Assembly: GCA_018902545.1 (NCBI GenBank)
Contig: JAHIQM010000004.1
Location: forward strand, 250,882 to 314,881
Length of the DNA stretch: 64,000 nt
Direction of reading: 5' to 3'
DNA from: Pseudomonadota bacterium
GTDB lineage: Bacteria; Desulfobacterota; Desulfovibrionia; Desulfovibrionales; Desulfomicrobiaceae
Part shown: one piece after another, positions 4,420 to 23,848 of the stretch
How the letters are laid out: the number at the start of each line of letters is the position of its first letter
Position numbering within the stretch: position 1 is the stretch's first letter
The notes under the pieces: generated by a model
The model's input: the letters and a program-made list of their open reading frames with translations, nothing else
What the model was told of the DNA's origin: nothing
Database searches by the model: none
Made by a program: the position numbers and the translations under genes

Positions 4420-4459
4420 GACGCGTAGTGCAAATGATAACGCATCACAGTACCGCTGC

Positions 4460-4951: not shown

Positions 4952-4990
4952 GCCCCTCCTACCAAACGAAATAAAACACGCCTTTTTCCC

Positions 4991-5015
4991 AAAAAAAAAC
5001 GCCGGTTTCCCGGCG
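4991..5015 (-). terminator. Terminator of the rsfS-gpmI operon
   Basis: On the minus strand a short GC stem (CGCCGG / CCGGCG, 5015-5000) is followed by nine T (4999-4991), 47 bases after the gpmI stop codon. Confidence 0.85.
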
Positions 5016-5061
5016 GATCGTATCCCCTGTTGCGGGGCTTTTTCTTACGCGCTCCTCCTGA

Positions 5062-6594
5062 TCAGAACGGCAGCAGCAGGCTCTCTCCGGTCATCTGCAC
5101 GGGCTTTTCAATCCCCAGTATGGCCAGGATGGTCGGAGCCACGTCGGCCAAACGACCGTCACGCACCCTGAAGTTCCCCGGTCCGACGTAGACGAAAGGC
5201 ACGGGATTCAGGCTGTGGGAAGTCTTCACGTTGCCCAGATCATCAAGCATGTCTTCGGCGTTACCGTGGTCCGCCGTGACCAGAAGCGTGCCCCCCAGAC
5301 CCTCCACGCAGTCCATGACGCGCCCCAGGCACAGGTCCACGGCTTCGCAGGCCTTGATCGCCGCCGGGATGACTCCGGTGTGGCCGACCATGTCCAGGTT
5401 GGCGAAATTGCAGACCACCATGTCGTATTTTCCTGATTCCAGGGCCGCCACCAGGGTGTCGGTGACCTTGAACACGCTCATCTCCGGCTTGAAATCGTAG
5501 GTGGGCACGTCCTTGGGGGAGGGAAGCAGCTCGCGGTCTTCGCCGGGAAACGGGGTTTCCTGCCCGCCGTTGAAGAAGTAGGTCACATGGGCGTATTTTT
5601 CCGTTTCCGCCGTGCGCAGCTGGCGCATACCCTGCTCCGAGACGAGCTGGCCAAGGATGCGGTCCAGGCTGACCGGTGGAAAAAGCGCAGGCAGGTCAAG
5701 GTTCTTATCGTAGCGGGTCATGGTCGCAAAGGCCGAAAGGATGGGCTTACGCGGCCGGTGAAAGCCGACGAAAGCGTCCTCGGTCAGGGCCCGGGTCAGC
5801 TCGCGCGCCCGATCCGCCCGGAAGTTGAAAAAGAGCACGGCGTCGCCGTCGCCGATCAGGCCCGAAGGCTGGCCGTTCGCAATCACCATGCGCGGCTTGA
5901 CGAACTCGTCGTTCTCGCCGCTTTCGTAGGCGTCGCTCACGGCCTCGGCGGCGCTGCCTGCCATCAGCCCCCTGCCTTCCACCAAGGCAGCATAGGCCAG
6001 TTCGACCCGCTCCCAGCGCTGGTCGCGGTCCATGGCGTAGTAGCGCCCCGAGACCGAAGCGATGCGGCCCGCGCCCATGCGGGCCAGGTCTTCTTCCAGG
6101 GTCTTTATGTAGCCCAGCCCGCTGCGCGGCGGAGTGTCCCGGCCGTCCAGAAAGGCGTGCACGCAGATGTCCGCCACGCCCTGATCGCTCAAGGCCTGGA
6201 CCAGCGCTACAAGATGGCTCTGCAGGCTGTGCACACCGCCATCGGAGACCAGACCCATGAGATGCACCCGTCCGGAGGCTCTCTTGGCTGTAGCCGCAAG
6301 GTCGGCCAGCACCGCGTTGGCGGCCAGGGAACCGTCTTCGATGGCCAGGTTGATGCGCATGATGTCCTGATAGACGATGCGCCCGGCCCCGAGGTTCAGG
6401 TGTCCGACCTCAGAATTGCCCATCTGCCCGTCAGGCAGACCCACGTCCCGGCCCATGCACTCAAGCTGTCCTTTGGGATGCCCAAAGAGCAGCGCGTCCA
6501 TGCGCGGCGTATGCGCCAGGCTGACCGCGTTGCCCGGCCCGGGAGCAGCCTTGCCCCAGCCGTCAAGGATGAGGAGCACGCAGGGCTTTTTCAT
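5062..6594 (-). CDS. gpmI: 2,3-bisphosphoglycerate-independent phosphoglycerate mutase
   Basis: Glycolytic and gluconeogenic enzyme interconverting 3- and 2-phosphoglycerate through a phosphoserine intermediate with two Mn ions. The 510-residue length is typical. The N-terminal metal motif LLILDGWG (residues 7-14), the catalytic serine in MGNSEVGHLNLGAGR (Ser61) and the metal-binding TADHGNAEDM near the C-terminus are all present. The ATG overlaps the stop of rsfS by 3-4 bases, so the two are translationally coupled. Confidence 0.97.
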   Translation of the reverse strand: MKKPCVLLILDGWGKAAPGPGNAVSLAHTPRMDALLFGHPKGQLECMGRDVGLPDGQMGNSEVGHLNLGAGRIVYQDIMRINLAIEDGSLAANAVLADLAATAKRASGRVHLMGLVSDGGVHSLQSHLVALVQALSDQGVADICVHAFLDGRDTPPRSGLGYIKTLEEDLARMGAGRIASVSGRYYAMDRDQRWERVELAYAALVEGRGLMAGSAAEAVSDAYESGENDEFVKPRMVIANGQPSGLIGDGDAVLFFNFRADRARELTRALTEDAFVGFHRPRKPILSAFATMTRYDKNLDLPALFPPVSLDRILGQLVSEQGMRQLRTAETEKYAHVTYFFNGGQETPFPGEDRELLPSPKDVPTYDFKPEMSVFKVTDTLVAALESGKYDMVVCNFANLDMVGHTGVIPAAIKACEAVDLCLGRVMDCVEGLGGTLLVTADHGNAEDMLDDLGNVKTSHSLNPVPFVYVGPGNFRVRDGRLADVAPTILAILGIEKPVQMTGESLLLPF

Positions 6595-6953
6595 TTTCCT
6601 TCCCCGGCCGTGACGCCCGCCGGCAGTTCCAGGGCCTCGGCCTTGGAGTAAAGTCCTTCGACATTATACAGGGACCGCGTCTCGTCCAGAAAAACATGCA
6701 CGATGACGTCATTGCAATCGACCAGTACCCATTGACCGGCCTGCATGCCCTCGACGCCGAAAAATTCCCATTTTTTTTCCGCGAGCCGTTGCATGACCTC
6801 ATCGGCCAGGGACTGGGCGTGCTTGGCCGACCTGGCCGTGACGAAAACCATGGTCTCGGTCAGGGGAGATATTCCCCGCACGTCGAGGGCCTTTATGTTT
6901 GTCCCCTTCTTATCCGCAAGCCAGGTCACTATCTGCTCAATCTTTTCTTCCAT
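6591..6953 (-). CDS. rsfS: Ribosomal silencing factor RsfS
   Basis: 120-residue RsfS/Iojap protein, which binds ribosomal protein uL14 and blocks subunit joining when nutrients are scarce. The family pattern is clear: LADKKGTNIKALDVRG, TETMVFVTARSAKHAQSLAD, GVEGMQAGQWVLVDCNDVIVHVF. A GTG at 6968 would add five residues; the ATG at 6953 is preferred because it gives the normal RsfS N-terminus (MEEKIEQI). First gene of the operon with gpmI. Confidence 0.93.
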   Translation of the reverse strand: MEEKIEQIVTWLADKKGTNIKALDVRGISPLTETMVFVTARSAKHAQSLADEVMQRLAEKKWEFFGVEGMQAGQWVLVDCNDVIVHVFLDETRSLYNVEGLYSKAEALELPAGVTAGEGK

Positions 6954-7172
6954 AAGGTTCGATTCCACTCCATATTCTGTATTTTATCGCTCAAACTCAT
7001 ATTTTCTACGTCAATTCTTTATGCAGGGCAATGAGGCAAACCTTGACGAATGCCGCGGGTCAAGGCATATGCCTGCTATGCGCTATATTATCGATTCAGT
7101 TTTCTTCCTCATATTTAGAAGCCCCTTCCACGGGGTCACGGTGTAGCGCCCGCCGCGCAAATGATTTTTCCT

Positions 7173-7203
7173 GCCGTGAACAGCCCCATGTTCGCGGCTT
7201 TTT
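7173..7203 (+). terminator. Intrinsic terminator in the leader of paaK
   Basis: 9-bp stem GCCGTGAAC / GTTCGCGGC (7173-7181 and 7190-7198, one G-U) followed by five T, ending 25 bases before the paaK start. No open frame precedes it on this strand for about 200 bases, so it may be an attenuator of paaK or the end of a small RNA. I see no recognisable riboswitch core in 6969-7172. Confidence 0.6.
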
Positions 7204-7228
7204 CATTTTTTCACCTGGAGGTTGAACC

Positions 7229-8530
7229 ATGCTTTACGACGTGTCGAACGAAACCATGCCCCGGGAGGAGCTGGAGGCCTTGCAGCTGCGGCGGCTCAAG
7301 GCCATGGTCGAAAAGGTCTACTACAACGTGCCCTTCTACCAGAACAGGTTCAACGAGATGGGCATCCGGCCGGAGCAGTTTCGCTCCCTGGACGACCTCA
7401 AGTACCTGCCCTTCACCGAAAAGCAGGACCTGCGCAGCAACTACCCCTTCGGTCTCTTCGCCGTGCCCCGCGACAACGTTGTGCGCGTGCATGCTTCCTC
7501 TGGCACCACAGGCACGGCCACGGTGGTGGGCTACACCCAGCGTGACGTGAACACCTGGGCCGATCTCATGGCCCGCTCGCTCATGTGCGCCGGAGCCAGC
7601 CGCCGCGACATCGTGCATAACGCCTACGGTTACGGACTCTTCACCGGGGGCCTTGGTATGCACTACGGCGTGGAGCGCCTTGGCGCGACCATCCTGCCCA
7701 TCTCCGGCGGCGGGACCCGGCGTCAGGTCATGCTCATGCGCGACTTCTGCTCGACCATCCTGTGCAGCACACCGTCCTACGCCCTGTTCCTGTACGAATC
7801 CATCATCGCCGCCGGCATGAGCATCGACGACCTGAAGCTGCACACGGGCATCTTCGGGGCTGAGCCGTGGAGCGAGAAGATGCGCGCCGAGATCGAATCC
7901 AAGCTGCGCATCAAGGCCCTCGACATCTACGGCCTGTCCGAGATCATGGGTCCGGGCGTGGGAATGGAATGCTGCGACGCCCAGGACGGCCTGCATATCT
8001 GGGAAGACCACTTCCTCATCGAGATCATCGACCCCGACACGGGCGAGCAGATGCCGCTTGGCGAATCCGGGGAACTGGTCATCACCACCCTCACCAAGGA
8101 AGCCCAGCCGCTGATCCGCTACCGCACCCGCGACATCACGCGCATCGAGGCCATCCCCTGCCGCTGCGGCCGCACGCACCGGCGCATCTCGCGCATCCAG
8201 GGCCGCAGCGACGACATGCTCATCATCCGCGGCGTCAATGTCTTCCCGCAGCAGATCGAGAGCATCCTGCTTGAAAACCAGGGCGTGGCCCCGCATTACC
8301 AGCTTATCCTGACCCGCCAGGGCAGCCTCGACATGCTTGAGGTCAAGGTCGAAGTGGACGAAAAGCTCTTCTCCGACGAGATCAGGCATTTACAGCGTAT
8401 CGAAGCCAAGATACAAAAAAATATCAAGGAATTCCTGGGCGTCACAGCCAAGGTGACCCTGTCCGAACCGCAGAGCATCGAACGCTCCGAAGGAAAGGCC
8501 AAACGCATCATCGACCTGCGCAACTCGTAA
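7229..8530 (+). CDS. paaK: Phenylacetate-CoA ligase family protein
   Basis: ATP-dependent aryl-CoA ligase (ANL superfamily), 433 residues, AMP-forming. The phosphate-binding loop [12 protein letters not shown] is at about residues 89-100; the AMP-binding [11 protein letters not shown] and the hinge region [14 protein letters not shown] follow in the expected order. In strict anaerobes such enzymes activate aryl acids from aromatic amino acid fermentation. TGGAG lies 9 bases before the ATG. The ACT gene follows 46 bases downstream, a conserved pairing in sulfate reducers that suggests regulation by, or sensing of, an amino acid. Confidence 0.94.
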
Positions 8531-8576
8531 ACAAGGGACCGGCGCCCCGCGCCCCCACCCCAGACCGGGAGGAACC

Positions 8577-9008
8577 ATGAAAGTAGAACAGATTTCCGTT
8601 TTTCTGGAAAACAGAGCTGGCCGTCTGGCCGAAGTGACCAAGACCCTGGCCGATAACCAGATCAATATCCGCGCCCTGTCCCTGGCCGACACCTCCGATT
8701 TCGGTATCCTGCGTCTCATCGTGACCGACAACGAAAAGGCCAAGGACGCGCTGAAGGCCAAGGGCTTCACCGTGGGCCGCACCAATGTCGTGGCCGCCGA
8801 GGTGGGCGACAAGCCCGGCGGGCTGCACACCATCCTGGAGATGCTCAACGCGGGCGGGGTGAACGTCGAATACATGTACGCCTTCGTAACCCAGAGCGGC
8901 CGCAACGCCATCCTCATCTTCCGCTTCGACCGCACGGACCAGGCCATCGAGGTGCTGCAGAAGAACAATGTGCGTATCCTCTCCGGAGACGAACTCTACA
9001 CCCTCTAA
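8577..9008 (+). CDS. Tandem ACT-domain protein
   Basis: 143-residue cytoplasmic protein made of two ACT domains (residues about 3-68 and 72-141), each with the beta-alpha-beta start ([40 protein letters not shown]). No catalytic domain is attached. ACT pairs bind amino acids, and stand-alone versions next to paaK are likely ligand sensors or regulatory subunits for the ligase. GGGAGG precedes the ATG at good spacing, and a terminator follows, so paaK and this gene form a two-gene operon. Confidence 0.9.
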
Positions 9009-9058
9009 GAGCCGGAACCATTCCCGCCCGAGCGGGACAGGCTTCGCATGCAACCCCG

Positions 9059-9085
9059 GCCCTCGTCCCGCGACGGGGGCTTTTT
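9059..9085 (+). terminator. Terminator of the paaK-ACT operon
   Basis: Stem GCCCTCGTC / GACGGGGGC (one G-U) with loop CCGC and a T5 tract, about 50 bases after the ACT gene stop. Confidence 0.88.
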
Positions 9086-9187
9086 CGTTCCAGGATACAA
9101 CGTGCCGACAGCCATTCCCATTCGCCCCCGCTTGCGGCCGAACGGTGCCCGGCCCCAGCCGAGGCGCGCAGGCACGGCGAAACAGTC

Positions 9188-10081
9188 ATGACCCACGCAC
9201 AGCCCCCCCGCTTCCAGCGCATCTATGTAGAGATCACCAACATCTGCAACCTGCGCTGCGATTTCTGCGTCGAGACCGCCAGGCCTGCCGCGAGCATGAA
9301 CCCGGCCTTCTTTAAACGCGTGCTGGAGCAGATCGCCCCGTTGACCGGTCAGATCTGTCTGCATGTATTGGGTGAACCGCTTCTGCACCCGCACTTAGAT
9401 ACGATCATGGACCTCTGCGCGGCGGCCGGGCTACAGGTCAACCTGACCACCAACGCCACGCTCCTTTCCGGCAAGGCGGACCTGCTGCTGCAGGCCAAAG
9501 CCTTGCGCCAGGTCAACTTCTCCATGCAGTCCCTGCGCCGCGGCGAACGTCTCGACACAGACACCCTGGAGGCGATCCTTGAATTCAGCCGCCGCGCGGA
9601 GCGCCTTAAGCCCGATCTCTACCTCAATTACAGGCTCTGGACCTTGCAAAATCTGCATTCTTCTGCGGACGGCGGGTTCAATGCGGCAATCCAGAGAAGC
9701 ATCGCGGCGGGCCTTGACTGTGAAATCCCGCCCCTGCCACCGGGGCGCAAGAGCCTTAAACTCAGGGGCCGCGCCTATCTGCACATGGACACGGTCTTTG
9801 CCTGGCCCGGAGACCTGGGCACAAAGGAACGGACGAGCGGATTCTGTCACGCCCTGTCCACCCACTGCGCGGTCCTGGCCGACGGCACGGTCTGTCCGTG
9901 CTGCCTTGACGCCGACGGCCGCCTCGCACTCGGCAACATCCACGACACCCCCCTTAATGCCATTCTGGATTCGCCCAGGGGCCGCGCCATGGCCGATGGC
10001 TTTGCGGCCGGGCGACTGGTGGAGGAGGTCTGCCGCCACTGCACCTATTGCCGCAGATTCAAAAGCAGGGCACAACGCTGA
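9188..10081 (+). CDS. Radical SAM/SPASM domain protein
   Basis: 297-residue radical SAM protein. The 4Fe-4S motif CNLRCDFC (CxxxCxxC) sits near residue 19 after EITNI, followed by a GEPLLHP motif. The C-terminal SPASM-like region has ADGTVCPCCLDADGRLALGNI and a final CRHCTYC, likely ligands for an auxiliary cluster. The family includes peptide and protein maturases, but no small precursor gene is visible beside it, so the substrate is unknown. It overlaps the upstream-open frame of nudC and is probably cotranscribed with it. Confidence 0.88.
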   Translation: MTHAQPPRFQRIYVEITNICNLRCDFCVETARPAASMNPAFFKRVLEQIAPLTGQICLHVLGEPLLHPHLDTIMDLCAAAGLQVNLTTNATLLSGKADLLLQAKALRQVNFSMQSLRRGERLDTDTLEAILEFSRRAERLKPDLYLNYRLWTLQNLHSSADGGFNAAIQRSIAAGLDCEIPPLPPGRKSLKLRGRAYLHMDTVFAWPGDLGTKERTSGFCHALSTHCAVLADGTVCPCCLDADGRLALGNIHDTPLNAILDSPRGRAMADGFAAGRLVEEVCRHCTYCRRFKSRAQR

Positions 10082-10125
10082 ACAACACCCGCGCAAACCG
10101 CGTACGCCAAGCCTCCGAGGCATTT

Positions 10126-11064
10126 ATGGACCATTACTCCCGTTCCGCCCGGAACACCTTCTCCGGCCTGATCCTCAGCCGCAAGCTCCCGCCCGATGTC
10201 CCGGACTTTGGGCAGACCTCGAGTCGCGCCCTGTACGTCGTGGTCAGGGGAGACGAAGTCCTTTTCGATGCGACGCAAAGCGAACCGCTCCTGCTCGCCC
10301 AGAACATGCTCGGCGGATGTGACCAGGACCACCTGCAGGCCATGCTTCTGGGCGACGACGGGCGGCACTGCTATTTCGCCGTCAACATCGACCGCCTGCC
10401 GTCCGGCACGGCCAGCTGTCTTGGCAGCCTTGGCACCTTTGTGCCCCTGCGCCGCCACGCGGCGGCGATGCCCAGCCAACTCGCCGCCCTGCTCGGCTAT
10501 GCCCGCGCCGCCGCAGGTTGGCACAGCCTGGCGCGCTTCTGCAGCCTGTGCGGGCACCCCACCGCGCCCAAACCAGGAGCCCTGGCGCAGACATGCACCA
10601 ACCCCGACTGCGGGGCGCAACATTTCCCGCGCGTCAACCCGGCCATGATCGTGCTCGTGCATCATGCGGACGCACACGGCGAACGCTGCCTGCTTGGCCG
10701 TCAGTCCACCTGGAATCCACGGGTCTACTCGGCCCTGTCCGGCTACGTGGAACCCGGGGAGAGCGCCGAGGACGCGGTCCTGCGCGAAGTCATGGAGGAG
10801 ACCGGCATCAAAGTAGATGACGTGCGCTACTTCTCGTCGCAGCCCTGGCCGTTTTCCGACTCGCTCATGCTCGGCTTCCACGCCCGCGCCATCAACACCG
10901 AGATTTACCTCGACGTGACAGAACTTGAGGACGCCCGCTGGTTTTCACGCCACGAAATCCCCAGCCTGCTGGACTCGGGCGAATTGGTCCTGCCCTCGGC
11001 CGAGACTATCGCCCGCCATCTCTTCGACGCCTGGTACTCCCACGACTACACGGACCGGGGCTGA
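10126..11064 (+). CDS. nudC: NAD(+) diphosphatase / NADH pyrophosphatase (Nudix)
   Basis: 312-residue NudC-type enzyme that splits NAD(H) to NMN(H) and AMP and can remove NAD caps from RNA. The zinc ribbon (CSLCGHP..CTNPDCG, about residues 139-165) precedes the Nudix box (GYVEPGESAEDAVLREV then MEETG, about 206-228), and the NudC-specific SQPWPF signature follows the box. The start at 10126 is chosen for GAGG 5 bases upstream. The N-terminal half is poorly conserved, as usual in the family. Confidence 0.93.
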   Translation: MDHYSRSARNTFSGLILSRKLPPDVPDFGQTSSRALYVVVRGDEVLFDATQSEPLLLAQNMLGGCDQDHLQAMLLGDDGRHCYFAVNIDRLPSGTASCLGSLGTFVPLRRHAAAMPSQLAALLGYARAAAGWHSLARFCSLCGHPTAPKPGALAQTCTNPDCGAQHFPRVNPAMIVLVHHADAHGERCLLGRQSTWNPRVYSALSGYVEPGESAEDAVLREVMEETGIKVDDVRYFSSQPWPFSDSLMLGFHARAINTEIYLDVTELEDARWFSRHEIPSLLDSGELVLPSAETIARHLFDAWYSHDYTDRG

Positions 11065-11204
11065 AGCTATACCGACCGTTTCAGTCGCAGGCTCCGGACG
11101 CAGCCCCACCTGCCAATGGCTCGTCGTTGCATGACCCCGGCAAGTATGCTTAAACATGGGCACGCCATTTGCCTGATCCGAAAACACGACCACGGGAGAA
11201 GACC

Positions 11205-12320
11205 ATGGGTAAGAAACTAGTTCTGGCCGGGGGCGGCCATGCGCATATGACCATCCTGGCCCACATGCGGGATCTGGTCCGGGAGGGCCACGAAGTCACC
11301 GTGGTCCAGCCATCCGATTTTCATTACTATTCCGGCATGGGCCCGGGCATGCTCGGCACGACCTACACGCCGTCCGAAATCCGCTTCGCGACCCGCTATG
11401 TGGTCGAGGGCATGGGCGGGAGCTTCATACGGGACAAAGTCGTGCGCATAGACGCCGCCCAGCGCCAGGTCATTCTGGCTTCCGGCCAGGTCCTGGACTA
11501 TGATGTACTGTCCTGCAACGCGGGCAGCTTTATCCCCTTTGACAACATCCACGGCGACACATCGAACGTCTTCACGGTCAAGCCCATCGAGCGTCTGCAG
11601 GAAGCGCAGCGGGCCGTCATCTCCCTCTGCGCGACCCGCACCAGGCCCCATGTGGCCGTGGTCGGAGGAGGGCCGGCCGCCCTGGAAATCGCGGGCAACG
11701 TGCGTAAGCTCGCCAAGCTGCGCGGACGCCACGAGCCACGCATCACCATCTTCGCCGGTCGGCAACTGCTCAGCCGTTTTCCGGAAAGAATAGGAAAAAT
11801 GACCAGGGAATCCTTTGCCAGCCAGGACATCACCATCAATGAAGACGGGTACGTCGACGAAATCCGTAACGGGGTCATCGTCCAGGGCGAAAGGCACCAC
11901 CACCCGGACCTCATCTTCGTGGCCACGGGCGTCAAACCCTCGCGCCTGTTCGCCGACTCCGGCCTGCCCACCGGGGTCACGGGCGGACTCTTGGTCAACG
12001 AGTATCTGCAAAGCGTGCAGCATCCGGAAATCTTCGGCGGCGGCGACTGCATCGACTTCGAGCCAAGCCCGCTGGACAAGGTCGGGGTCTACGCCGTGCG
12101 CCAGAACCCGGTCCTGCTGCGCAACGTGCGCGCCGGGCTGAACGGGACCAGGCTGCAGCGTTTCGACCCCGGCGGAAAGTATCTGCTGCTCTTTAATATG
12201 GGCGATGACACGGCCATTTTCAGCAAGGGGCCGATCATTTTCCGTAATTGGCTGGGATTCCTGCTTAAAGACTTCATTGACCGGCGTTTCATGCGTCACT
12301 TCCAGGCCCTTGAACGCTGA
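11205..12320 (+). CDS. FAD-dependent pyridine nucleotide-disulfide oxidoreductase (SelD-fusion/NDH-2 type)
   Basis: 371-residue flavoprotein. The N-terminal FAD motif is KLVLAGGGHAHMTIL; YYSGMGPGMLGTTYTPSE and LSCNAGSF follow, and a second Rossmann motif VAVVGGGPAALEIAGN binds NAD(P)H. The GGGHAH and YSGM patterns match the NADH-dehydrogenase-like domain that is fused to selenophosphate synthetase (SelD) in many bacteria, more than respiratory NDH-2. The gene leads a tightly overlapping operon with an ABC importer. Start at 11205 from GGGAGAAGACC upstream. A link to selenium handling is inference; the reaction is unknown. Confidence 0.82.
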   Translation: MGKKLVLAGGGHAHMTILAHMRDLVREGHEVTVVQPSDFHYYSGMGPGMLGTTYTPSEIRFATRYVVEGMGGSFIRDKVVRIDAAQRQVILASGQVLDYDVLSCNAGSFIPFDNIHGDTSNVFTVKPIERLQEAQRAVISLCATRTRPHVAVVGGGPAALEIAGNVRKLAKLRGRHEPRITIFAGRQLLSRFPERIGKMTRESFASQDITINEDGYVDEIRNGVIVQGERHHHPDLIFVATGVKPSRLFADSGLPTGVTGGLLVNEYLQSVQHPEIFGGGDCIDFEPSPLDKVGVYAVRQNPVLLRNVRAGLNGTRLQRFDPGGKYLLLFNMGDDTAIFSKGPIIFRNWLGFLLKDFIDRRFMRHFQALER

Positions 12321-13308
12321 GAGTCCCGGGCACGATCTGCTGCGGGTCAAGGGACTGGGCAAGCGTTTCGGCACGACCACGGTCTTCCATGACGTAAGCT
12401 TCGACGTGGCCCGGGGCAGTCTTGTCTCCCTGGTCGGCCCCTCGGGCGCGGGCAAGACCACGCTGCTCCACATCATCGCCGGTTTGCAGAAAGCCGACAG
12501 CGGGACGGTGAGCCGTTTTGACGGTGACGGGGACAGGCACCCCGCCATTCTCGTCTTTCAGGACTACGTGCTCTTCCCGAACATGACGGTGTTCCAGAAC
12601 ATCGCTTTTGGCCTCAAAGCCCGGGGGCTGTCCAAGGCCGCCATCCGCGACAAGGTCGCGCCCCTGCTTAACTATTTTCACCTTGAGGACCGGGCCGAGG
12701 CCTATCCGGCCCAGCTCTCGGGCGGGCAGAAGCAGCGCGTGGCCATCGCCCGGGCCATGATCCTTGAGCCATCGCTGCTCCTCCTCGACGAGCCCTTCGC
12801 CAACCTCGACCGCAACCTGAAAATGGAGACGGCCCTTTTTATCCGCTCCACCCAGCGCACCTTCGGCATCACCACGATCTGCGTGACCCACGACCTGCAG
12901 GAGGCCCTGGCCATGTCCGACCACATCGGGGTCATGCTCGGAGGCAAGCTGCGGCAGTTCGCCCCGCCGCTGGAGGTCTACCGAAGTCCCGTAGACATGG
13001 AGACGGCCCGCTTTCTGGGGCCGGTGAACACCATCACTGCGCCTCTGGCCCGGCTTCTGGGCCTTGAGATCTGTCGGCTTCGGCCCGAGGCCCTGCGCAT
13101 GGAACCGGACCCGGAAGGCCCCGGCATCATCATCGCCTCGCATTTCGCCGGGCACTACATGTCCTACACCGTCCGCATCCTGGACCAGGATCTCGCGGTC
13201 TACGCTCTGGAACCTTGGGCGCAGCCCGGGGACAGGGTGCGCATCCACATTTCAAACCAGTATCCGCCCATTTTTGGCGGTTCCTTCACGGAGGATTCAT
13301 GCGTGTGA
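12310..13308 (+). CDS. ABC transporter ATP-binding protein (YnjD-like)
   Basis: ABC ATPase of 332 residues if the TTG at 12310 is the start, which overlaps the previous stop by 11 bases. Walker A is GPSGAGKTT, the signature is LSGGQKQR and Walker B is LLLLDEPFANLD, followed by the H-loop VTHD. A C-terminal extension of about 110 residues resembles a TOBE-like regulatory domain. It supplies energy to the two permeases downstream. No ATG lies between the preceding stop and the conserved start of the domain, so a non-ATG start is required. Confidence 0.88.
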   Translation: MNAESPGHDLLRVKGLGKRFGTTTVFHDVSFDVARGSLVSLVGPSGAGKTTLLHIIAGLQKADSGTVSRFDGDGDRHPAILVFQDYVLFPNMTVFQNIAFGLKARGLSKAAIRDKVAPLLNYFHLEDRAEAYPAQLSGGQKQRVAIARAMILEPSLLLLDEPFANLDRNLKMETALFIRSTQRTFGITTICVTHDLQEALAMSDHIGVMLGGKLRQFAPPLEVYRSPVDMETARFLGPVNTITAPLARLLGLEICRLRPEALRMEPDPEGPGIIIASHFAGHYMSYTVRILDQDLAVYALEPWAQPGDRVRIHISNQYPPIFGGSFTEDSCV

Positions 13309-16646: not shown

Positions 16647-19600
16647 TTAAAGCCCTAAATCTCGCCGCTTCACTTCAGAGTCCTCCCGTATCGCGTTTTT
16701 CTCATATGACTCGGCGATAGTTCGGAGTACACCTGAAATTCGAGGCCATTGCTTTCCGACTCTTTCAGCGCATTTATTAAAGCTGGCCGCCAGTTTCCTT
16801 TCCTGGGCACCGCCTTCATTCATGGAACGTGAAACAACTCCTCGTCCATAGCGGATGCTACTGTAAAAACTCTCGTCCATATCTCGAGAGTTAAGTCCCT
16901 CTAGAATACGGCATATCTCAGCCGGTGGCCAAGTCTCTCCCGTAGGTTCTGGACCAACAAACCTTCCCAACAAGCCTCCTAGTGCATAATCACAGGAGCT
17001 GAAATACCCCCTATCCTTTGCAAGCTGGCGGACATCGGCAATCCATCCAGAGAGTGTGTCAATGTCAATTTTCCCATTATCGTCAGTTCCCGGAGGGTTA
17101 GCCCATGTTGACAAGAATCTGGAGGCATTGACTGCGACTCGGGTTTCTTGATCCGAGAGCTTCTTCTGTTCTTCCGCGTCGTCTGGACGATACGCCATAG
17201 CAAGAAAATCAATGAATAAATTAGGTGACTTTGCCAAGGTCGTATGAAGGGCAAGGTTTAGTGGTTCGCCTTGGTCAAACGCAGGGATGTAGCGCCACTC
17301 CAAGAGACCAACCGTCATTTCAGAGAGATCTTTTCGATTTTTTAATTCTTTGAACGCCTTGTCTATATAGTAGGATTGCATGTGGGCAAGTCGCGCCTTA
17401 GCTTGATCCTGATGTCTGAGGATGCACTCAAGAATCTGGACTAACACTCCGGAAGGGAGAAACTTTCCATATTGTGCAATTGCTTTAAGTGCTATAGCCG
17501 CATTTCCGTACTGGAGATATGAAATAAAGGCGTAAAGAATATCCTCTTCTTCGGAATCTCTTAAGTTTGGGTATGCTTTATTCCAGTAATCTGTTTGCAC
17601 TTCTTCAGGAAATTCTTCCAGCAAATCCCAGACAAATATATTAGTTGGAGCTTGGCGAAATAAGGCCTTCATGGAAGATATATTCCACTGTTCGTCAATA
17701 GACTTTTGTGCTAATCGCGCGAAATTTTTATTTTCCAGCGGATAAATTTTTTTACGAATATATCCTGTGGCAAAAGCATATTTTGCAGATTCTTCATGCT
17801 CGTTCAGCAAAGAACACATTGCATCTTCTATGTTTTCTTTTTCTTCTATCAAACGTAAGCTAAAGCCGATACTACTTGGCTCTTCAACTATAAATGATGC
17901 TTCGATTAACCCCTGAAATCCAAAACGTGTAAAAATATCAAGAACGGCGCTCTCCCTCTCAGTCTGTACACGTACACCATGTTGATCATCGCTGATGTCT
18001 CCCCCATCAAAGAATTCAGGATACCCAAACACAAAGAGCCAAGCATGTTTATATAGGCCATCTGGTTCTATTTGATGAAAAATTGTTTCGATGTATTTGA
18101 GTTCCTCATCAGGAAGAGCCCATTCGGCGTCTGGAAACGACCTATGGTGTTCAAGGAGGTTACGAAGTTCCTTGACTATTTCAAGGCACGCCGCTTGGTT
18201 TTGCTTAATGTCAGGAATGCACCGTTGAAATTTTTCCCGTGTTATTTCTCTGCTATGGGGAGAAAGATCTGGATACTTCTGCCATAGTTTGTTCCAATAA
18301 GATGGAGCAACAGCGATTTTTTCAAGGATGAGGTGGACAATGGAATCCCATTCCTGTCCCAGCAAATAGAGGGAGTAGGTTCTGGGGCATGGTGCGATAT
18401 CTTCACGGAATGTTGGACGGGGGTTGTCCGTCCAACTGGCGAAGTTATCGGGAAGTAATTGGATGACGACCTTCCAGAATGCTTCGGGCTCTCGATCGTG
18501 CAGCATCCGCAATGTTTCGATTCGTTGTTCCTGAGTCGTTGTGGATTGGGGTGCGATGGGCAAAAGAATCGATTGAAGGCTGTTTCCGGGTCGATTGCTC
18601 ATTTGCCCACCGGGGTCCAAGCGTGACAACTGGGCAAGCGCCAAAGCAACTCGCCCGAAGTGTTCCGGAAACCATGCCAGTGTTTCCAGTGCCCAAAGCA
18701 AATTGGTATGTGTGGACGCTCCCATGAATCCTACTTCGGTGAACATTTTCATGACGGGAGGATCGTCTTGGGCCAGAGAATGTCCCAGGGCCGCCAGAAA
18801 TTGTAAGGGAGATGCTTCGGCTAGATCTGGGAGGCAGCGGGCTAAAGATGCCCAACGGACGCCATTGGCATCATAAAGTAAGTATTGGACAAGACTGCGT
18901 GCGCGGCTTTGCAAGAAAATAGTTTGATCTGGTGCGTCGTCGCGCCGGATTGTTCCCATTCTGTTGATGCTATGGGCTAAGCCTTCAATCAAGCGGTCAG
19001 AATACGGGCGTTGTTTGTTGTACAGAGCCGCGTACCAACGTTTGTCGGGTTCGAGTTCATATTTGGGATGGTCCATCCCGAGAACAGTCTGGACGGCGTG
19101 TTCAAAGCGGTCCAGGTCCGGCCCCGTCAGGAACCGCGCGAGCATGGTCCAAGCATCCTCGGTCGAGATGAGTTTCCATAAACTGCCCACACAAGTGAAG
19201 GGAGAATCAGAAACATTGCGCCAACGCGCCCACACTGTGCTGAGTTCCTCATATGGGCGGCCGCCTAGTTCGGCGAGTACCTGCCGGTCATGTTTGTTGT
19301 GTTCATCCCATTTGTTGGCCAGCAAAGCAGGAATTAGGAGTGGTCCATTATCCGGCAAAGCCCATTCCGGAGATAATAGCATCCCGGATGGTGCTAAACG
19401 ACGCCTAAGGATGGAAAAACTACGACCAGTACTGTCGGCCAACTTTTTGCATTGGTCTTCCCCTAGTCCCATCACTTTCAGCTGGTTAATGAACGGTTCG
19501 CGTGCTGGACGGTCAAGTTTGAGGTATTGCCCCCCGTCAGGTGCATCGTTCCCAACGCAAAGTAGTATATGATGTCCATACCGCGCCAAGGAGGAGGCGA

Positions 19601-20429
19601 TACCTATCTCCGCTTGCAGGGCCACCACAATATGAGGCCTCTTAGTTGGAGCAAACTGCCGCAAGAAGTCTTGGGAGCTAGAGATAAATGTACGTGCTTC
19701 AGCAACTTGCTGTTGGTCGTCTGGCAGGTTTTGGACAAAGGCTGCAAAGAAAGCGACACTTTCATCCGGCGACAAAGACTTAAGAGTAAGAATCGAAGGG
19801 GCAGCCTCAATCCATTTGCCCAATTCGCGCGTTTCATTTTCTCGTCCCGCCAATATTAGGGGGGGCGTGAGAACGGGGTCCGTCACACCGCTCCATTCTT
19901 CCCACCAGTCGTTCAAAGAAATCGCGTCCGGGGGGGCGAATCCAAGTTCTTTGGCCCACCAAGCGCCAACCGCTGGCGACGACTCAAGCCAAAGCTCTAA
20001 ATCCTCGGCGTCATAGGCCCTCACATCGCGCCATGGTCCCTTTTGTCGTTTGGCTTCTTCCCACTCCTGTTTCTTAAGCCATCTGCGCGGGGTGACAAAC
20101 ATGAAGGTCGTTTCAGTAGGGGTGATACCGACGCCCGGTTGATCTTTGCGATTGCCAAAGTCTTCGTTGGCTTTTTGATTAATGTTTCGGTTAGTCCCAA
20201 ACTCCCAAACAGACACACCTTTTGGGATAAATTCGTTGGCTTCATCATCTCTCGCCTCCACAATACCGTCCCAGCCAGAGCGATAGACGCTGTCATGAAC
20301 TGGTATCTGTGGAGGTCGCAGAGTCGTACAGGAAGCCATGATCAAACGGCGGATCAGGTGCGGCAACTGCCCTTGGCTCTGTCTTGTGTCCGCCCATCTG
20401 TTCAATTGGGTTGCGGTAGTCCATCTCAT
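16647..20429 (-). CDS. Large protein with predicted PD-(D/E)xK-like N-terminal domain; candidate defence protein
   Basis: 1260 residues from the ATG at 20429 (a TTG at 20465 is less likely). The N-terminal 170 residues contain GWDGIVEA, VSVWEFGT, INQKA and FMFVTPRRW; the spaced Asp, Glu and Lys could be a restriction-endonuclease-like active site. Next comes YDAEDLELWLESSPAVGAWW, then a region at the position of a STAND ATPase but without a readable Walker A loop. The remaining 900 residues look helical and repeat-like. The gene is alone, AT-richer than its neighbours, and sits in an island with a toxin-antitoxin pair. The nuclease fold and defence role are inferences from pattern and context; I know no tested function. 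Confidence 0.6.
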   Translation of the reverse strand: MRWTTATQLNRWADTRQSQGQLPHLIRRLIMASCTTLRPPQIPVHDSVYRSGWDGIVEARDDEANEFIPKGVSVWEFGTNRNINQKANEDFGNRKDQPGVGITPTETTFMFVTPRRWLKKQEWEEAKRQKGPWRDVRAYDAEDLELWLESSPAVGAWWAKELGFAPPDAISLNDWWEEWSGVTDPVLTPPLILAGRENETRELGKWIEAAPSILTLKSLSPDESVAFFAAFVQNLPDDQQQVAEARTFISSSQDFLRQFAPTKRPHIVVALQAEIGIASSLARYGHHILLCVGNDAPDGGQYLKLDRPAREPFINQLKVMGLGEDQCKKLADSTGRSFSILRRRLAPSGMLLSPEWALPDNGPLLIPALLANKWDEHNKHDRQVLAELGGRPYEELSTVWARWRNVSDSPFTCVGSLWKLISTEDAWTMLARFLTGPDLDRFEHAVQTVLGMDHPKYELEPDKRWYAALYNKQRPYSDRLIEGLAHSINRMGTIRRDDAPDQTIFLQSRARSLVQYLLYDANGVRWASLARCLPDLAEASPLQFLAALGHSLAQDDPPVMKMFTEVGFMGASTHTNLLWALETLAWFPEHFGRVALALAQLSRLDPGGQMSNRPGNSLQSILLPIAPQSTTTQEQRIETLRMLHDREPEAFWKVVIQLLPDNFASWTDNPRPTFREDIAPCPRTYSLYLLGQEWDSIVHLILEKIAVAPSYWNKLWQKYPDLSPHSREITREKFQRCIPDIKQNQAACLEIVKELRNLLEHHRSFPDAEWALPDEELKYIETIFHQIEPDGLYKHAWLFVFGYPEFFDGGDISDDQHGVRVQTERESAVLDIFTRFGFQGLIEASFIVEEPSSIGFSLRLIEEKENIEDAMCSLLNEHEESAKYAFATGYIRKKIYPLENKNFARLAQKSIDEQWNISSMKALFRQAPTNIFVWDLLEEFPEEVQTDYWNKAYPNLRDSEEEDILYAFISYLQYGNAAIALKAIAQYGKFLPSGVLVQILECILRHQDQAKARLAHMQSYYIDKAFKELKNRKDLSEMTVGLLEWRYIPAFDQGEPLNLALHTTLAKSPNLFIDFLAMAYRPDDAEEQKKLSDQETRVAVNASRFLSTWANPPGTDDNGKIDIDTLSGWIADVRQLAKDRGYFSSCDYALGGLLGRFVGPEPTGETWPPAEICRILEGLNSRDMDESFYSSIRYGRGVVSRSMNEGGAQERKLAASFNKCAERVGKQWPRISGVLRTIAESYEKNAIREDSEVKRRDLGL

Positions 20430-20565
20430 GACGATTACATACAGTCCGCTTAATAAAGATAGCAATGGGCAGATAGTAGGCGGTGATAGCCATTTTGCTG
20501 GTTGCCACGGTTGCTGGAAAGGGCGCCGCCCTCAACTCACAATCAAAATTTTTTTAATAATAACA

Positions 20566-20712: not shown

Positions 20713-20799
20713 GTTTCTGAGTACATTGATTTAACCACGCCTAGAAATGCGTAGGTCGTCCTCGGTTCTTCTTTTCGCCCGCCGCCTTTGCCACTTGCC

Positions 20800-20820
20800 A
20801 TAGTCCCAATTTGGGACTAT
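20800..20820. promoter_or_regulatory. Perfect palindrome, probable HigA operator
   Basis: ATAGTCCCAA-T-TTGGGACTAT: two perfect 10-base arms around a single base, 9 bases before the higB start. Antitoxins of this type bind palindromes at their own promoter and repress the operon, so this is the likely autoregulatory site. No clear -35/-10 pair was assigned. Confidence 0.7.
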
Positions 20821-20829
20821 TTCGTTTTT

Positions 20830-21129
20830 ATGAGAATAATCGCTCTGTCCACATTGAAAAGTTTTTGGGAATCCCCGACCTATGCGGATGCCAAAGAACC
20901 GTTGCTGGCCTGGTACAGGCTTGTTTTCAAGGCTGACTGGGCATCCCCAACGGATATCAAGGCTGATTTGCGAAGCGCCAGCATTTTACGGGATGGAAGA
21001 GTGATTTTCAACATTGCCGGGAACAAATACCGATTGGTGGTTTGGATAAATTACCCTTACCGGGTTGTTTACATCCGCTTTGTCGGGACACATGTTCATT
21101 ATGACGCCATTGACCCGCAAACGATATGA
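20830..21129 (+). CDS. higB: HigB-family mRNA interferase toxin
   Basis: 99-residue RelE-superfamily toxin that cleaves mRNA on the ribosome. Matches to the HigB group include MRIIALSTLKSFWE at the N-terminus, KADLRSASILRDGRVIFNIAGNKYRLVV in the core and RFVGTHVHYDAIDPQTI at the end. The toxin-first order and the antitoxin 8 bases downstream are typical of higBA. The start at 20830 is the first ATG after the palindrome; the Shine-Dalgarno is weak, as is common for tightly controlled toxins. Confidence 0.92.
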   Translation: MRIIALSTLKSFWESPTYADAKEPLLAWYRLVFKADWASPTDIKADLRSASILRDGRVIFNIAGNKYRLVVWINYPYRVVYIRFVGTHVHYDAIDPQTI

Positions 21130-21137: not shown

Positions 21138-21518
21138 ATGAATATAAAGCCTATTCACAATGAAGATGATTACAGAGCAACCCTGCGCCAGATTGAAACT
21201 TTCATGAACGCGCAAGAGAATACGCCCGAAGGCGATCTGCTCGATATTCTTGTAATTCTTGTGGAAGCCTATGAACGTAAAGCGTATCCGATGAGCTTGC
21301 CTGACCCTGTGGAGGCCATCAAATTCTATATGGAACAAAACGAAATGACGCCCAAGGACTTAGAACCGGTAATCGGGCGCATGAATCGTGTCTATGAAGT
21401 GCTGAACCATACGCGCCCCCTTACCCTGAAAATGATACGCAACCTTCATGGTCAGTTCGGTATTCCGGCGGAAAGCTTGATTAAGGAGCCGACTCGGCAT
21501 CGGAATACCTCAGCATAA
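21138..21518 (+). CDS. higA: HigA-family antitoxin
   Basis: 126-residue antitoxin with a C-terminal helix-turn-helix (about residues 68-116). The family pattern MTPKDLEPVIGRMNRVYEVL, then RPLTLKMIRNLH and FGIPAESLI, is clear. The N-terminal part probably wraps HigB. AGGTG lies upstream of the ATG, 8 bases after the toxin stop. It should repress its own operon through the palindrome at 20800-20820. Confidence 0.92.
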   Translation: MNIKPIHNEDDYRATLRQIETFMNAQENTPEGDLLDILVILVEAYERKAYPMSLPDPVEAIKFYMEQNEMTPKDLEPVIGRMNRVYEVLNHTRPLTLKMIRNLHGQFGIPAESLIKEPTRHRNTSA

Positions 21519-21860
21519 TCCAGTTTCGCACCAAACAACGACTCACCCGTTATCTTGTCTGAAAAGAGTCAAGCAGGTCAACATCGCAGATCAAGTCCGG
21601 CCTCGGAAGATGGGTTGGCCACTTTCCAAATTGCCGTCAACAAACCCGCCAGTTCTCATTTTCATGAGAAAGTCAGATAACATACTCATAATTATTAGAA
21701 AAACAGAAAAACTCGACTTAAATATACTCTTTTTCACTCTATTTTGTGACAAGTGTTGACGTTTCTGGCGCAATTCAGATAGCTCTTATCTATAAATTAC
21801 CGCAACAGTCATCGGTTTTTGCAATAACAGCAGTGAGCACTTGTTCACAAAGGAGAGAAA
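21519..21860. other. Leader region of the selenopeptide operon
   Basis: AT-rich stretch without a gene between higA and the precursor gene. A TTGACG at 21756-21761 could be a -35 element, but no convincing -10 follows at the right spacing. An imperfect palindrome GTGAGC / GTTCAC (21833-21848) sits just upstream of the ribosome binding site. Confidence 0.4.
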
Positions 21861-22112
21861 ATGGACACAAATGATTTGAAAAAAGTTCTGGCTGGCTGCT
21901 GCCTTGCGGCACTCTTGGCCAGTGCCTCGGCAGGTGCGGTCAACGCAGTGGCTTCCGGGAGCGGCTGAGGTGGGAGTTCAAAGCCCGCTGCCGGTGGCAG
22001 CGAGGGAAATGAAACGGACGGAAATTCCACAAAACCTGCTCCCGGTGGAAGCGGCTGAGGTGGTGGAGCAAAAACCGGTGCCGGGAGCACCGATACACCC
22101 CAAAAGCAGTAA
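21861..22112 (+). CDS. sbtA: Selenocysteine-containing RiPP precursor peptide (selenobiotic SbtA-like), two in-frame UGA
   Basis: 83-residue peptide if UGA codons 36 (21966-21968) and 66 (22056-22058) are read as selenocysteine, ending at TAA 22110-22112. The ribosome binding site AAAGGAG is ideal. The leader (MDTNDLKKVLAGCCLAALL, then ASASAG) is hydrophobic, like a signal sequence. The rest is a Gly/Ser-rich core in which both Sec residues have the same setting, GSG-Sec-GG, followed by GSS and GGA. The surrounding 14 bases, AGCGGCTGAGGTGG, are identical at both sites, while sequence between them differs. Each UGA has a hairpin 23-24 bases downstream. The next gene is a peptide-modifying radical SAM enzyme. 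A normal gene caller would stop at residue 35 and discard the gene. Confidence 0.88.
21986..22002 (+). promoter_or_regulatory. Putative bacterial SECIS hairpin for Sec36
   Basis: CGCTGCC-GGT-GGCAGCG, a perfect 7-bp stem whose loop GGU begins 24 bases after the UGA. Bacterial SECIS elements lie within the coding region shortly after the UGA and show a GU-containing apical loop recognised by SelB, which fits. Confidence 0.7.
22076..22092 (+). promoter_or_regulatory. Putative bacterial SECIS hairpin for Sec66
   Basis: CGGTGC-CGGGA-GCACCG, a 6-bp stem with a 5-base loop beginning 23 bases after the second UGA. The position equals that of the first hairpin; the loop has GG but lacks GGU, so the match to SECIS is weaker. 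Confidence 0.58.
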
Positions 22113-22132
22113 AAACGTATCGCTCAGGGAAT

Positions 22133-22160
22133 AAGGGGGAGTTGCATGGCTCCCCCTTTG
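22133..22160 (+). terminator. Terminator or attenuator between precursor and maturase genes
   Basis: 9-bp stem AAGGGGGAG / CTCCCCCTT with an 8-base loop, 20 bases after the precursor stop. The T-tract is short (part of the stem end), so read-through into the maturase is likely. This would give more precursor than enzyme mRNA, as in many RiPP operons. Confidence 0.65.
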
Positions 22161-22240
22161 CCATGTATACATGTATTGATGAAATCCAGAAAATCCTGTT
22201 AGTCCAGAAACTCTTATGACACTTTTCGCAGGAAAAGACC

Positions 22241-23848
22241 ATGAATCAAGCGGAGCTGCATACGATTTATCCAGTGACAGCATCATTTCTCGATGCAAAA
22301 ACACTCTTAAATGTTGAGACGTCTCTCAAAAATAGTGCAAAAACGCTCCTCAAGGCTGTAGAAGATATTTCCCAAAAAAGCTTGGCCCCTTTTTTTCTGC
22401 CGGACATCTGCGCATTGGAAATTGCAATGGAGAAGGTTGCGTCAAAGACGGTTGTCCCGCCTGGACCTACCGAGAGCATTATTGTGAATCCGAGCCTTGA
22501 GTTATGTGTGCTGGCTTCTTCGGGATGTGTTGACGTGATTCACAGAATCGACACAAAGATATGTCCAGTTCCGGGTCAAGAAATGATTCTGGTGTGGAAA
22601 AATAGCGGCATGCAAAAAGTTACTGTTGCAGTAGCAAAGCCTGAAGATCTCGCCGCAATCAAAATTATTACAGACGGGTTGGACCCCGCGAGCGCAGAAA
22701 CCGAAGCGAACGTTACGCCCGGCCTGGTCGACATTCTTCTCAGAAGAGCCTTGGACAAAGGCATCCTCCTTTCTCCCGCATCACTCATACGACGTAAGCG
22801 CCGGGATTTTTCCGACAGTCTTTCAATCCCAGAACAACATCTCAGTGCGGAAGTCTTCACCCTGCAGTGGCATATCACCCAGGACTGCGACCTGTTTTGT
22901 CGTCATTGCTACGACCGGAGCGCCCGATCGAATATGGCCGTGGACAAGGCTATGGATGTGATCGATAATTTCCATTCTTTTTGCCGGGATCGGCACGTTC
23001 GCGGGCAGATAAGTTTTTCCGGAGGAAATCCCCTGCTCTACCCCGGATTTCTGGAAGTCTACGAACGGGCAGCCCGGAAAGGTTTCACCCTGGCCATCCT
23101 CGGCAATCCAACCACCAGGGAAATGATGGACTCGATCTTGAAAATCGCCCGGCCGGAATACTTTCAGGTCAGCCTGGAAGGATTGCCCGAACACAACGAT
23201 TCCATCCGTGGCCATGGGCATTTCCAGCGGGTCATGAACTTTCTTGAGGTATTGAGGGCTGTCGATATCCAAGGGCAGATCATGCTTACCCTGACGCGGG
23301 ATAATATGAACCAGGTACTGCCCTTGGCCGAAATATTGGAAGGCAAAGTCTGGGGCCTGGCCTTCAACCGGCTCTCCCCGGTGGGAAGAGGCGCTGCTCT
23401 TGCCCTGCCCGATCCCGCTGAATTTCAACACTTTGCGGCAAGGTATTGCGAGTCCGCCTCACGGCTTGGTGTCCTGTCTTTCAAGGACAACATGCTCAAT
23501 GCCCAGTTGGCCGCCAAAGGAGAAGCACTCTTCGGGGGCTGCACCGGATTCGGCTGTGGCGCAGCCTTCAATTTCATGGCCTTGCTCCCGGACGGGGAAG
23601 TGCATGCCTGCCGAAAACTCCCTTCACTTATCGGAAACATTTCAACCGCATCTCTTGGCGAAATTTACGATGGGCAAGCAGCCGTCAGGTACCGCACCCG
23701 AAGCGAAGCCTGCCGGGAATGCTCCATCGTGGCGACATGTGGCGGTTGTCTGGCGGTAGTTTCAGGACTTGGATTGGACATCGCCAAGGATCGCGACCCA
23801 TTTTGCCCGGGACCAATCCTCCAGCCTCCCGCCAAGTCGGCCTCTTGA
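22241..23848 (+). CDS. sbtM: Radical SAM/SPASM peptide maturase (selenobiotic SbtM-like)
   Basis: 535-residue enzyme. Residues 1-200 form a divergent N-terminal domain of the kind that binds leader peptides. The radical SAM core starts at WHITQDCDLFCRHCYDR, with cluster ligands Cys216, Cys220 and Cys223, followed by FSGGNPLLYP. The C-terminal SPASM region has GCTGFGCGAAFN, DGEVHACRK, CRECSIVATCGGC and a final CPG, enough cysteines for two auxiliary clusters. AGGAAA precedes the ATG by 5 bases. Position 129 bases after the selenopeptide gene makes that peptide the likely substrate. The chemistry (for example a thio- or selenoether crosslink or oxidation) is not shown by the sequence. Confidence 0.88.
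   Translation: MNQAELHTIYPVTASFLDAKTLLNVETSLKNSAKTLLKAVEDISQKSLAPFFLPDICALEIAMEKVASKTVVPPGPTESIIVNPSLELCVLASSGCVDVIHRIDTKICPVPGQEMILVWKNSGMQKVTVAVAKPEDLAAIKIITDGLDPASAETEANVTPGLVDILLRRALDKGILLSPASLIRRKRRDFSDSLSIPEQHLSAEVFTLQWHITQDCDLFCRHCYDRSARSNMAVDKAMDVIDNFHSFCRDRHVRGQISFSGGNPLLYPGFLEVYERAARKGFTLAILGNPTTREMMDSILKIARPEYFQVSLEGLPEHNDSIRGHGHFQRVMNFLEVLRAVDIQGQIMLTLTRDNMNQVLPLAEILEGKVWGLAFNRLSPVGRGAALALPDPAEFQHFAARYCESASRLGVLSFKDNMLNAQLAAKGEALFGGCTGFGCGAAFNFMALLPDGEVHACRKLPSLIGNISTASLGEIYDGQAAVRYRTRSEACRECSIVATCGGCLAVVSGLGLDIAKDRDPFCPGPILQPPAKSAS

Follow-up and report, generated by a model that had tools for sequence, protein, structure and literature searches.

A putative two-selenocysteine SbtA peptide with a SECIS hairpin behind each UGA and a maturase with a domain related to the partner proteins of bufferin-making enzymes

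Introduction

SbtA/SbtM systems pair a short precursor peptide (SbtA, TIGR04081) with an adjoining radical S-adenosylmethionine (SAM)/SPASM maturase (SbtM, TIGR04082), and are described as thio(seleno)oxazole systems among the ribosomally synthesized and post-translationally modified peptides (RiPPs). Here, we analyze such a locus in a 64,000-nucleotide stretch of DNA, hereafter the window, from a Desulfomicrobiaceae bacterium (assembly GCA_018902545.1, contig JAHIQM010000004.1, positions 250,882 to 314,881), in which the sbtA gene contains two in-frame UGA codons. According to the available part of a review, SbtM was assayed in vitro (Lewis et al. 2021), where both Cys and selenocysteine substrates lose four hydrogens; nuclear magnetic resonance identified the Cys product as a thiooxazole, and the TGA codon is said to be directly followed by an insertion element (PMC11002830). 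A table in the accessible text of a 2026 review lists the family as Selenobacteriocin, with TIGR04081, the motif SGUG, and two selenocysteines (PMC13188914). An initial sequence-only reading of the window, made by a model, had called the product uncharacterised; this holds for the natural product and its function, which are not described in the available text of the literature searched, but not for the modification, which the SbtM assays characterise in part.

The second point of comparison is the bufferin/captophorin type of RiPP. In the portions of the literature at hand, multinuclear non-heme iron-dependent oxidative enzymes (MNIOs) that depend on PME1 partner proteins install 5-thiooxazoles on copper-binding precursors, those of the bufferins having Sec-pathway signal peptides (PMC12452194, PMC12668002). 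Such signal peptides are described there as uncommon for RiPPs and as linked to PME1 (PMC12452194), and PME1 proteins, 3DEE being an example, are in turn associated with thiooxazole and copper (PMC12668002). The SbtM-modified peptide is reported, in the text available, to show a band at ~305 nm, the same as the products of PME1-dependent MNIOs.

Results

The window encodes a further SbtA precursor

The sbtA gene (21861..22112; all features lie on the forward strand unless noted otherwise) starts with an ATG at 21861 behind the ribosome binding site AGGAG (21851..21855), and runs through UGA at codons 36 (21966..21968) and 66 (22056..22058), both predicted to encode selenocysteine, to a TAA at codon 84 (22110-22112), giving a precursor of 83 residues. 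This frame is the one that the sequence-only reading had proposed, and each of its elements was located. The leader (residues 1–26, 21861..21938) matches the NCBIfam model TIGR04081 with 43 bits against a curated cut-off of 30.5, as the sole match in the genome, and the family name SbtA given in the sequence-only reading is correct. Both UGA codons lie in the core motif GSGUGG, within the family context [GS][GS]-U/C-G, and the sbtM gene adjoins (22241-23848): the window gene is a further member of the SbtA family, with the leader family, the neighboring SbtM, and the selenocysteine-containing SGUG-type core of the described systems. The part of the review table seen already credits the family with two selenocysteines (PMC13188914); the window differs in that a same-genus relative encodes Cys in place of UGA66, and what is added here is a selenocysteine insertion sequence (SECIS) hairpin for each UGA, a hairpin-imprinted spacer, and a PME-like domain in SbtM. 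Neither the hairpins nor the adjoining maturase and the signal-peptide-like leader had figured in the sequence-only reading.

The 14 bases AGCGGCTGAGGTGG are identical around both UGA codons, as had been stated. The coding-type substitutions beyond UGA36 described below show that the frame is not a product of chance. The identity by itself is no proof of the selection claimed for this motif because modules also multiply and get lost. Module number varies from three in loci L044 and L126 to two in L045 and L127, and module copying may contribute to the 14-base identity.

Both UGA codons are almost certainly recoded

SelA (618 bits), SelB (361 bits, cut-off 242), SelD (332 bits), and a tRNA-Sec with anticodon TCA were all found in the genome of the window, i.e., the complete set of selA, selB, selC, and selD. 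The selD gene (L010, C17:16043-16963) probably encodes a selenoprotein itself, since one in-frame TGA is read through.

We compared the window gene with two same-genus precursors of equal length (L124 and L125), noting that the three pairwise comparisons share branches. The reading frame is kept after UGA36 in all three, and substitutions beyond this codon fell at codon position 3 in 8/12, 8/14, and 12/14 cases, with synonymous and non-synonymous rates (pS/pN) of 0.17/0.055, 0.17/0.074, and 0.28/0.037 in the same order. In the +1 and +2 frames, pN was at, near, or above pS, so that a clear pS > pN was seen in the true frame only. Both UGA codons are retained in L125, while L124 retains UGA36 but reads TGC (Cys) in place of UGA66 and still has the hairpin that follows. 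Two other same-genus relatives carry three (L126) and two (L127) UGA modules, their sbtA genes being letter-identical to those of L044 and L045, respectively, and the first module has UGA in 5/5 distinct same-genus precursors compared. Homologues with UGA or Cys at the module positions, and conservation beyond them, were thus found when looked for, as the sequence-only reading had anticipated. Taken together, these patterns leave little doubt that both UGA codons of sbtA are recoded as selenocysteine.

A SECIS hairpin follows each UGA

In selenoproteins of the Escherichia coli FdhF type, UGA is followed by a SECIS hairpin whose loop carries G-G/U. The window gene has this arrangement in common with them, along with selABCD, but places several UGA codons in one short peptide, each predicted to have its own SECIS hairpin. 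Hairpin 1 (CGCTGC-CGGTG-GCAGCG, 21986..22002) begins 17 nucleotides (nt) past UGA36, is 17 nt long, and covers the codons of PAAGGSE; hairpin 2 (CGGTGC-CGGGA-GCACCG, 22076..22092) likewise begins 17 nt past UGA66 and is 17 nt long. At pair 3, C-G in hairpin 1 is replaced on both sides by G-C in hairpin 2.

Across the family, we counted hairpins with at least 5/6 pairs and an NG[GU]NN loop located 15–25 nt after a module, using offsets of 29–39 nt as a control. These counts, like those of motifs and leaders below, refer to 89 distinct precursors, and the lipobox Cys of leaders was not counted as a Cys module. Hairpins followed 127/141 internal selenocysteine modules (7/141 at control offsets) and 38 of the 51 terminal ones (5/51), compared to 6/58 Cys modules, for which the control offsets gave the same 6/58. 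The distinction also holds within mixed precursors, where a hairpin lies behind 13/16 selenocysteine modules vs 1/10 Cys modules. Separately, Cys-codon modules that still have a SECIS hairpin were seen in L124 and L019, which looks like recent loss of selenocysteine.

Internal hairpins (45 of 75 distinct) displayed 62 both-sided covariation cells vs 15.8 when shuffled, with 97.0% paired, although two of five measures were less decisive (two-sided-change pairs, 146/500 shuffles as high; further pair types, 41/500). For the 27 distinct terminal hairpins, 28 both-sided cells were found vs 6.3 shuffled, with 98.1% paired. Fifteen of these lie wholly 3′ of the stop codon, and in the other 12 the stem starts with the stop codon TAG itself, which sets SbtA apart from the FdhF type; because all 27 are at or beyond the stop codon, coding cannot explain them. 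As the hairpins used for covariation had been picked for pairing, we applied a leave-one-pair-out selection, under which the omitted pair still paired in 60/60 cases at pairs 4, 5, and 6, 60/61 at pair 2, 60/63 at pair 3, and 60/75 at pair 1. Loop base 2 was G in 93/93 hairpins picked without using the loop, and base 3 was T or G (47 and 46). As a side observation, the precursors of L014 (1119) and L015 (1109) end in GNGSUEGxGSU, reflecting either a divergent SECIS or ordinary stops.

The hairpin is imprinted on the spacer peptide

Hairpin 2 coincides with the codons of residues 73–77, GAGST (22077..22091), whereas the first module of the window has AAGGS at this place. A GAGST/SAVST-like motif follows 110/138 internal selenocysteine modules vs 2/41 Cys modules, and both of these Cys modules share the spacer of an adjoining selenocysteine module. 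In 60 distinct in-register hairpins, for whose choice pair 4 was ignored, residue 5 can be predicted from the silent third base of the opening motif codon: T goes with Thr (33/37), C with Ala or Val (19/19), A with Ser (3/3), and G with Ser (1/1). Because a silent base predicts an amino acid four codons away, RNA pairing writes that amino acid, and the GAGST-type motif is the hairpin in translated form. The relation between hairpin and peptide motif is not named in the available text of the literature searched and, as far as that literature shows, the RNA-imprinted spacer is new.

The N-terminal domain of SbtM is homologous to MNIO partner proteins

The sbtM gene (22241..23848) encodes a radical SAM/SPASM maturase of 535 residues that matches TIGR04082 with 759.5 bits (cut-off 350) as well as the Radical_SAM and SPASM models of Pfam. 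Its radical SAM core (PF04055, residues 212–363, 22874..23329) includes the cluster motif CDLFCRHC, with columns invariant in 28 SbtM, and the SPASM domain (PF13186) covers residues 439–494 (23555..23722). By both profile and fold, the N-terminal region (22265..22777) is homologous to the DUF2063-RRE (PME type 1) partner proteins of bufferin-making enzymes, RRE denoting the RiPP recognition element; RRE-only lookalikes scored well under the MNIO partners and were set aside. The Pfam DUF2063 model itself gave no match to SbtM at E ≤ 1, and nothing in the genome. No link between SbtM and MNIO partner proteins appears in the accessible text of the literature searched, and the finding is new as far as that literature shows.

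SbtA and SbtM have in common with the bufferin/captophorin type a thiooxazole made from a Cys next to Gly, repeated cores, a signal-peptide-like leader (some with a lipobox), and a recruiter of the DUF2063-RRE type. They differ in that SbtM is a radical SAM/SPASM enzyme and not an MNIO, the recruiter is fused to SbtM, and selenocysteine replaces Cys; in addition, copper binding is known for bufferins, whereas for SbtA it would follow from the chemistry and a few neighborhoods. Given the in vitro precedent of a homologue, we consider it very likely that the window SbtM modifies SbtA.

The leader resembles a signal peptide

The window leader combines a charged start, a hydrophobic core, and small residues ahead of the first selenocysteine, and family leaders similarly have a lysine-rich start followed by a hydrophobic core. 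In 43/89 leaders, a Cys is found at residues 20–33 ahead of the first module (at residue 29 in 33 of them); the residue before this Cys is G, A, or S in 42/43 (20.9 expected), and L occupies position -3 in 22. By a strict lipobox count, at least 16/89 leaders qualify. Leader composition and these lipobox statistics are what point to a Sec-pathway signal peptide, which would be of the lipoprotein type in about half of the family. The leader would then be cleaved and the SbtA peptide exported, an export that we regard as likely. In L020, L021, and L043, two SbtA genes precede one SbtM, and in L020 and L021 one of the two leaders is lipobox-like and the other is not.

Distribution of SbtM and of selenocysteine and Cys precursors

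SbtM over the cut-off was detected in 39/395 genomes sampled in the phylum and in 0/16 other genomes of the same order in this sample. In a separate set of 22 genomes of the same family, 5 had it, the one of the window included. A scan of contigs from named genomes yielded 283 stretches encoding an SbtM relative, 80 of which were kept and combined with 30 loci from the phylum sample into 110 loci; of the precursor rows, four chance hits (L083, L076 at 3947, L095 at 2674, and the minus strand of L114) were dropped. SbtM had no relative in two scans of viral contigs, and a viral origin was rejected. A precursor was found in 91/110 loci (89 distinct sequences), some of the 19 loci without one being on contigs that end near sbtM. 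By class, 71 precursors were selenocysteine-type, 8 mixed, and 10 Cys-only, with one selenocysteine module in 10 precursors, two in 28, three in 38, and four in 3. In Omnitrophota, Cys precursors were seen in L154, L155, L158, and L159, and none was seen for L157.

SelB was searched for in 60 genomes of the 110 loci, 57 of them with a precursor, in a non-random choice made to take in every Cys-only case seen. It scored over the cut-off in 45/48 genomes with a selenocysteine-type or mixed precursor vs 1/9 with a Cys-only precursor (Fisher 8.5e-7, ignoring relatedness). Since Cys-only precursors thus occur without SelB over the cut-off in 8/9 genomes, selenium appears not to be essential to the SbtA family. 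In an SbtM tree of 87 rows with checked labels, the 9 Cys-only rows need 3 changes, of which well-supported branches force 1, and repeated loss of selenocysteine is not shown by this tree. The precursor of L033 (G129) lacks UGA modules but has numerous Cys modules, although its genome has SelB; here, sbtA follows sbtM.

Metal genes and other neighbors

In the Omnitrophota locus L094, a single strand (3468-13200) encodes a metal-sensitive repressor, an outer membrane efflux protein, a CusB-type fusion protein, a resistance-nodulation-division (RND) pump, a Cys-type SbtA, SbtM, DoxX, and NDH2. A divergent set in L046 comprises an RND pump, a CusB-type protein with a heavy-metal-binding domain, and an efflux protein, and L088 has an RND pump and a CusB-type protein ~4.5 kb away. 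RND pumps over the TIGR00914 cut-off were found in 3/80 loci with flanks vs 0.42 expected (Poisson 0.009), based on 25 such pumps in the 67.9 Mb of 20 genomes. The RND pumps beside L049 and L055, AcrB-like in our judgement from their first letters, were left out of the count of metal pumps. In L084 (15733-17895) and L115 (14147-15988), P-type ATPases bearing a CPC motif lie ≤10 kb from SbtM matches, and the L084 protein also carries a heavy-metal-binding domain; the base rate given above is for the RND pumps. A metal operon shared by other Omnitrophota was considered and rejected (0/7 loci), L183 and L187 having only a distant RND protein ~7 kb off (23–24% identity), that of L183 from the AcrB/D/F family. 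Overall, the support that neighboring genes give to a metal role is thin.

A Pfam scan of 16 window proteins returned neither DoxX, which is common but not universal in bufferin clusters and present in L094, nor an MNIO; the search for MNIOs did not extend beyond these proteins to the remaining genome. Across 81 neighborhoods (genes of ≥80 residues), SbtM was found in 78 loci and every other gene cluster in 12 loci or fewer. The next clusters cover 12, 8, 8, and fewer loci, mostly the same dozen; the two that were annotated are a GAF-GGDEF protein (12 loci) and an exo/endonuclease-phosphatase (8 loci). Based on this low recurrence, a conserved gene cluster beyond sbtA-sbtM was ruled out.

Within the window, an imperfect dyad (GTGAGC-ACTT-GTTCAC, 21833..21848), a putative operator, lies directly 5′ of the ribosome binding site, with a similar form in two same-genus relatives, perfect in L125. 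The gap between sbtA and sbtM holds a GC-rich inverted repeat (GGGGGAG...CTCCCCC, 22135..22156; z -2.68 for the fold of 22113-22170), a candidate attenuator with just three T behind it and similar repeats in same-genus relatives; despite this hairpin, no terminator was called between the two genes by a terminator scan. Another inverted repeat (TTCTCAT-TTTC-ATGAGAA, 21653-21670), ~190 bases 5′ of sbtA, is poorly kept in relatives. Further upstream are a HigB-type toxin gene (PF09907, 100 bits; 20788-21126), followed by a small gene without Pfam match (21138-21518), and, on the reverse strand, an open frame of 1272 residues (16647-20465) that neither Pfam nor NCBIfam models match at E ≤ 1.

Discussion

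We propose that both UGA codons of SbtA, each with its own SECIS hairpin, would be read as selenocysteine, that the N-terminal domain of SbtM would grip the signal-peptide-like leader, and that SbtM likely turns both selenocysteines into selenooxazole rings before a predicted export. Leader cleavage and export of the peptide would follow, and the exported peptide would likely bind soft metals such as copper. Of these steps, we infer selenocysteine insertion, the same SbtM action on both residues, leader cleavage with export, and metal binding; as a whole, the scheme seems to us somewhat more plausible than its absence. If recoding were as efficient as in E. coli, where the available text puts it at 30–40% at one UGA (PMC4513850), our guess is that two UGA codons would give roughly 10–15% full-length peptide and much 35-residue leader.

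How far could the same observations be read differently? Taking UGA36 as an ordinary stop would agree with the standard code and leave a gene for a 35-residue fragment followed by decaying sequence, but the coding-type substitutions beyond UGA36, the Cys codon of L124, the covarying SECIS hairpins, and selABCD in the genome make this scarcely credible. Other alternatives accept gene and chemistry and differ in what the product does. Many RiPPs with SbtA-like precursors are antimicrobial. The listing of the family as Selenobacteriocin, in the part of the table seen, would fit an antimicrobial or signaling peptide (a selenobacteriocin or selenobiotic) rather than a metal binder (PMC13188914). 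However, no widely recurring transporter, peptidase, or immunity gene was seen in the 81 neighborhoods, most of whose clusters are unannotated, and about half of the leaders have a lipobox-like Cys, so that those peptides would be membrane-anchored; we consider such a product improbable. Selenocysteine is favored at redox sites. Together with up to 4 selenocysteine modules per precursor, and with the pyridine-nucleotide oxidoreductase and DoxX beside L094, this would suit an exported selenopeptide for redox or peroxide defense or for selenium storage, a role that the Cys-only precursors of genomes without SelB over the cut-off (8/9) speak against and that we rate as unlikely, if slightly less so than the antimicrobial one.

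The resemblance of the SbtM N-terminus to MNIO partners could also reflect old shared leader-binding ancestry that says nothing about biological role, as RRE domains are found across diverse RiPP systems according to the text available (PMC12452194); we think this rather doubtful. An exported, soft-metal-binding selenopeptide remains for us the most likely product. SbtM has the ring, the predicted type of leader, and the recruiter in common with the PME1-dependent MNIO class. That the SbtA peptide buffers metals is possible, with slightly less than even chances in our estimate.

Several observations weigh against this proposal. Metal genes are rare beside SbtM loci (RND pumps in 3/80), the Pfam scan of 16 window proteins brought up no metal gene, and the repressor, CusB, and DoxX of L094 are unmatched in seven other Omnitrophota loci (L183-L188, L098). 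The window leader is without a lipobox, and homology alone is no demonstration that the SbtM domain binds the SbtA leader. The window hairpins reach energy z values of only -2.37 and -1.49 vs shuffles in 50-nt stretches, 37-nt stretches are not notable, and an Rfam search returned no SECIS match for them; an Rfam identity was dropped, the only two hits being to small RNAs at chance level. In L014 and L015, the selenocysteine module is followed not by a standard SECIS loop but by a 7-pair hairpin with a GATA-type loop. Finally, many precursors and hairpins are related, hence the counts are not independent, and absence of SelB in metagenome bins may reflect incompleteness.

No biological role is assigned to the SbtA family in the available text of the literature searched. 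The MNIO-partner domain in SbtM, together with signal-peptide-like leaders and the same ring, ties this orphan selenium product to a class with a copper role, and this link makes SbtA function directly testable. The GAGST motif clearly shows an RNA signal writing a conserved peptide motif, one that is absent from modules with Cys instead of selenocysteine, a caution for readers of peptide logos of recoded genes. MNIOs are oxygen-using, and radical SAM enzymes are oxygen-sensitive. Because the SbtM domain is homologous to the partner proteins of bufferin makers, the peptide may be an oxygen-free selenium counterpart of bufferins. More tentatively still, SbtA/SbtM could be the anaerobic selenium branch of thiooxazole metallophores, in which a radical SAM enzyme with a bufferin-type recruiter would make an exported or lipid-anchored selenooxazole peptide that buffers copper or other soft metals, with GAGST spacers serving solely for SECIS. 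If so, two unrelated enzyme types, MNIO and radical SAM, would supply one and the same ring to exported scaffolds of a single kind.
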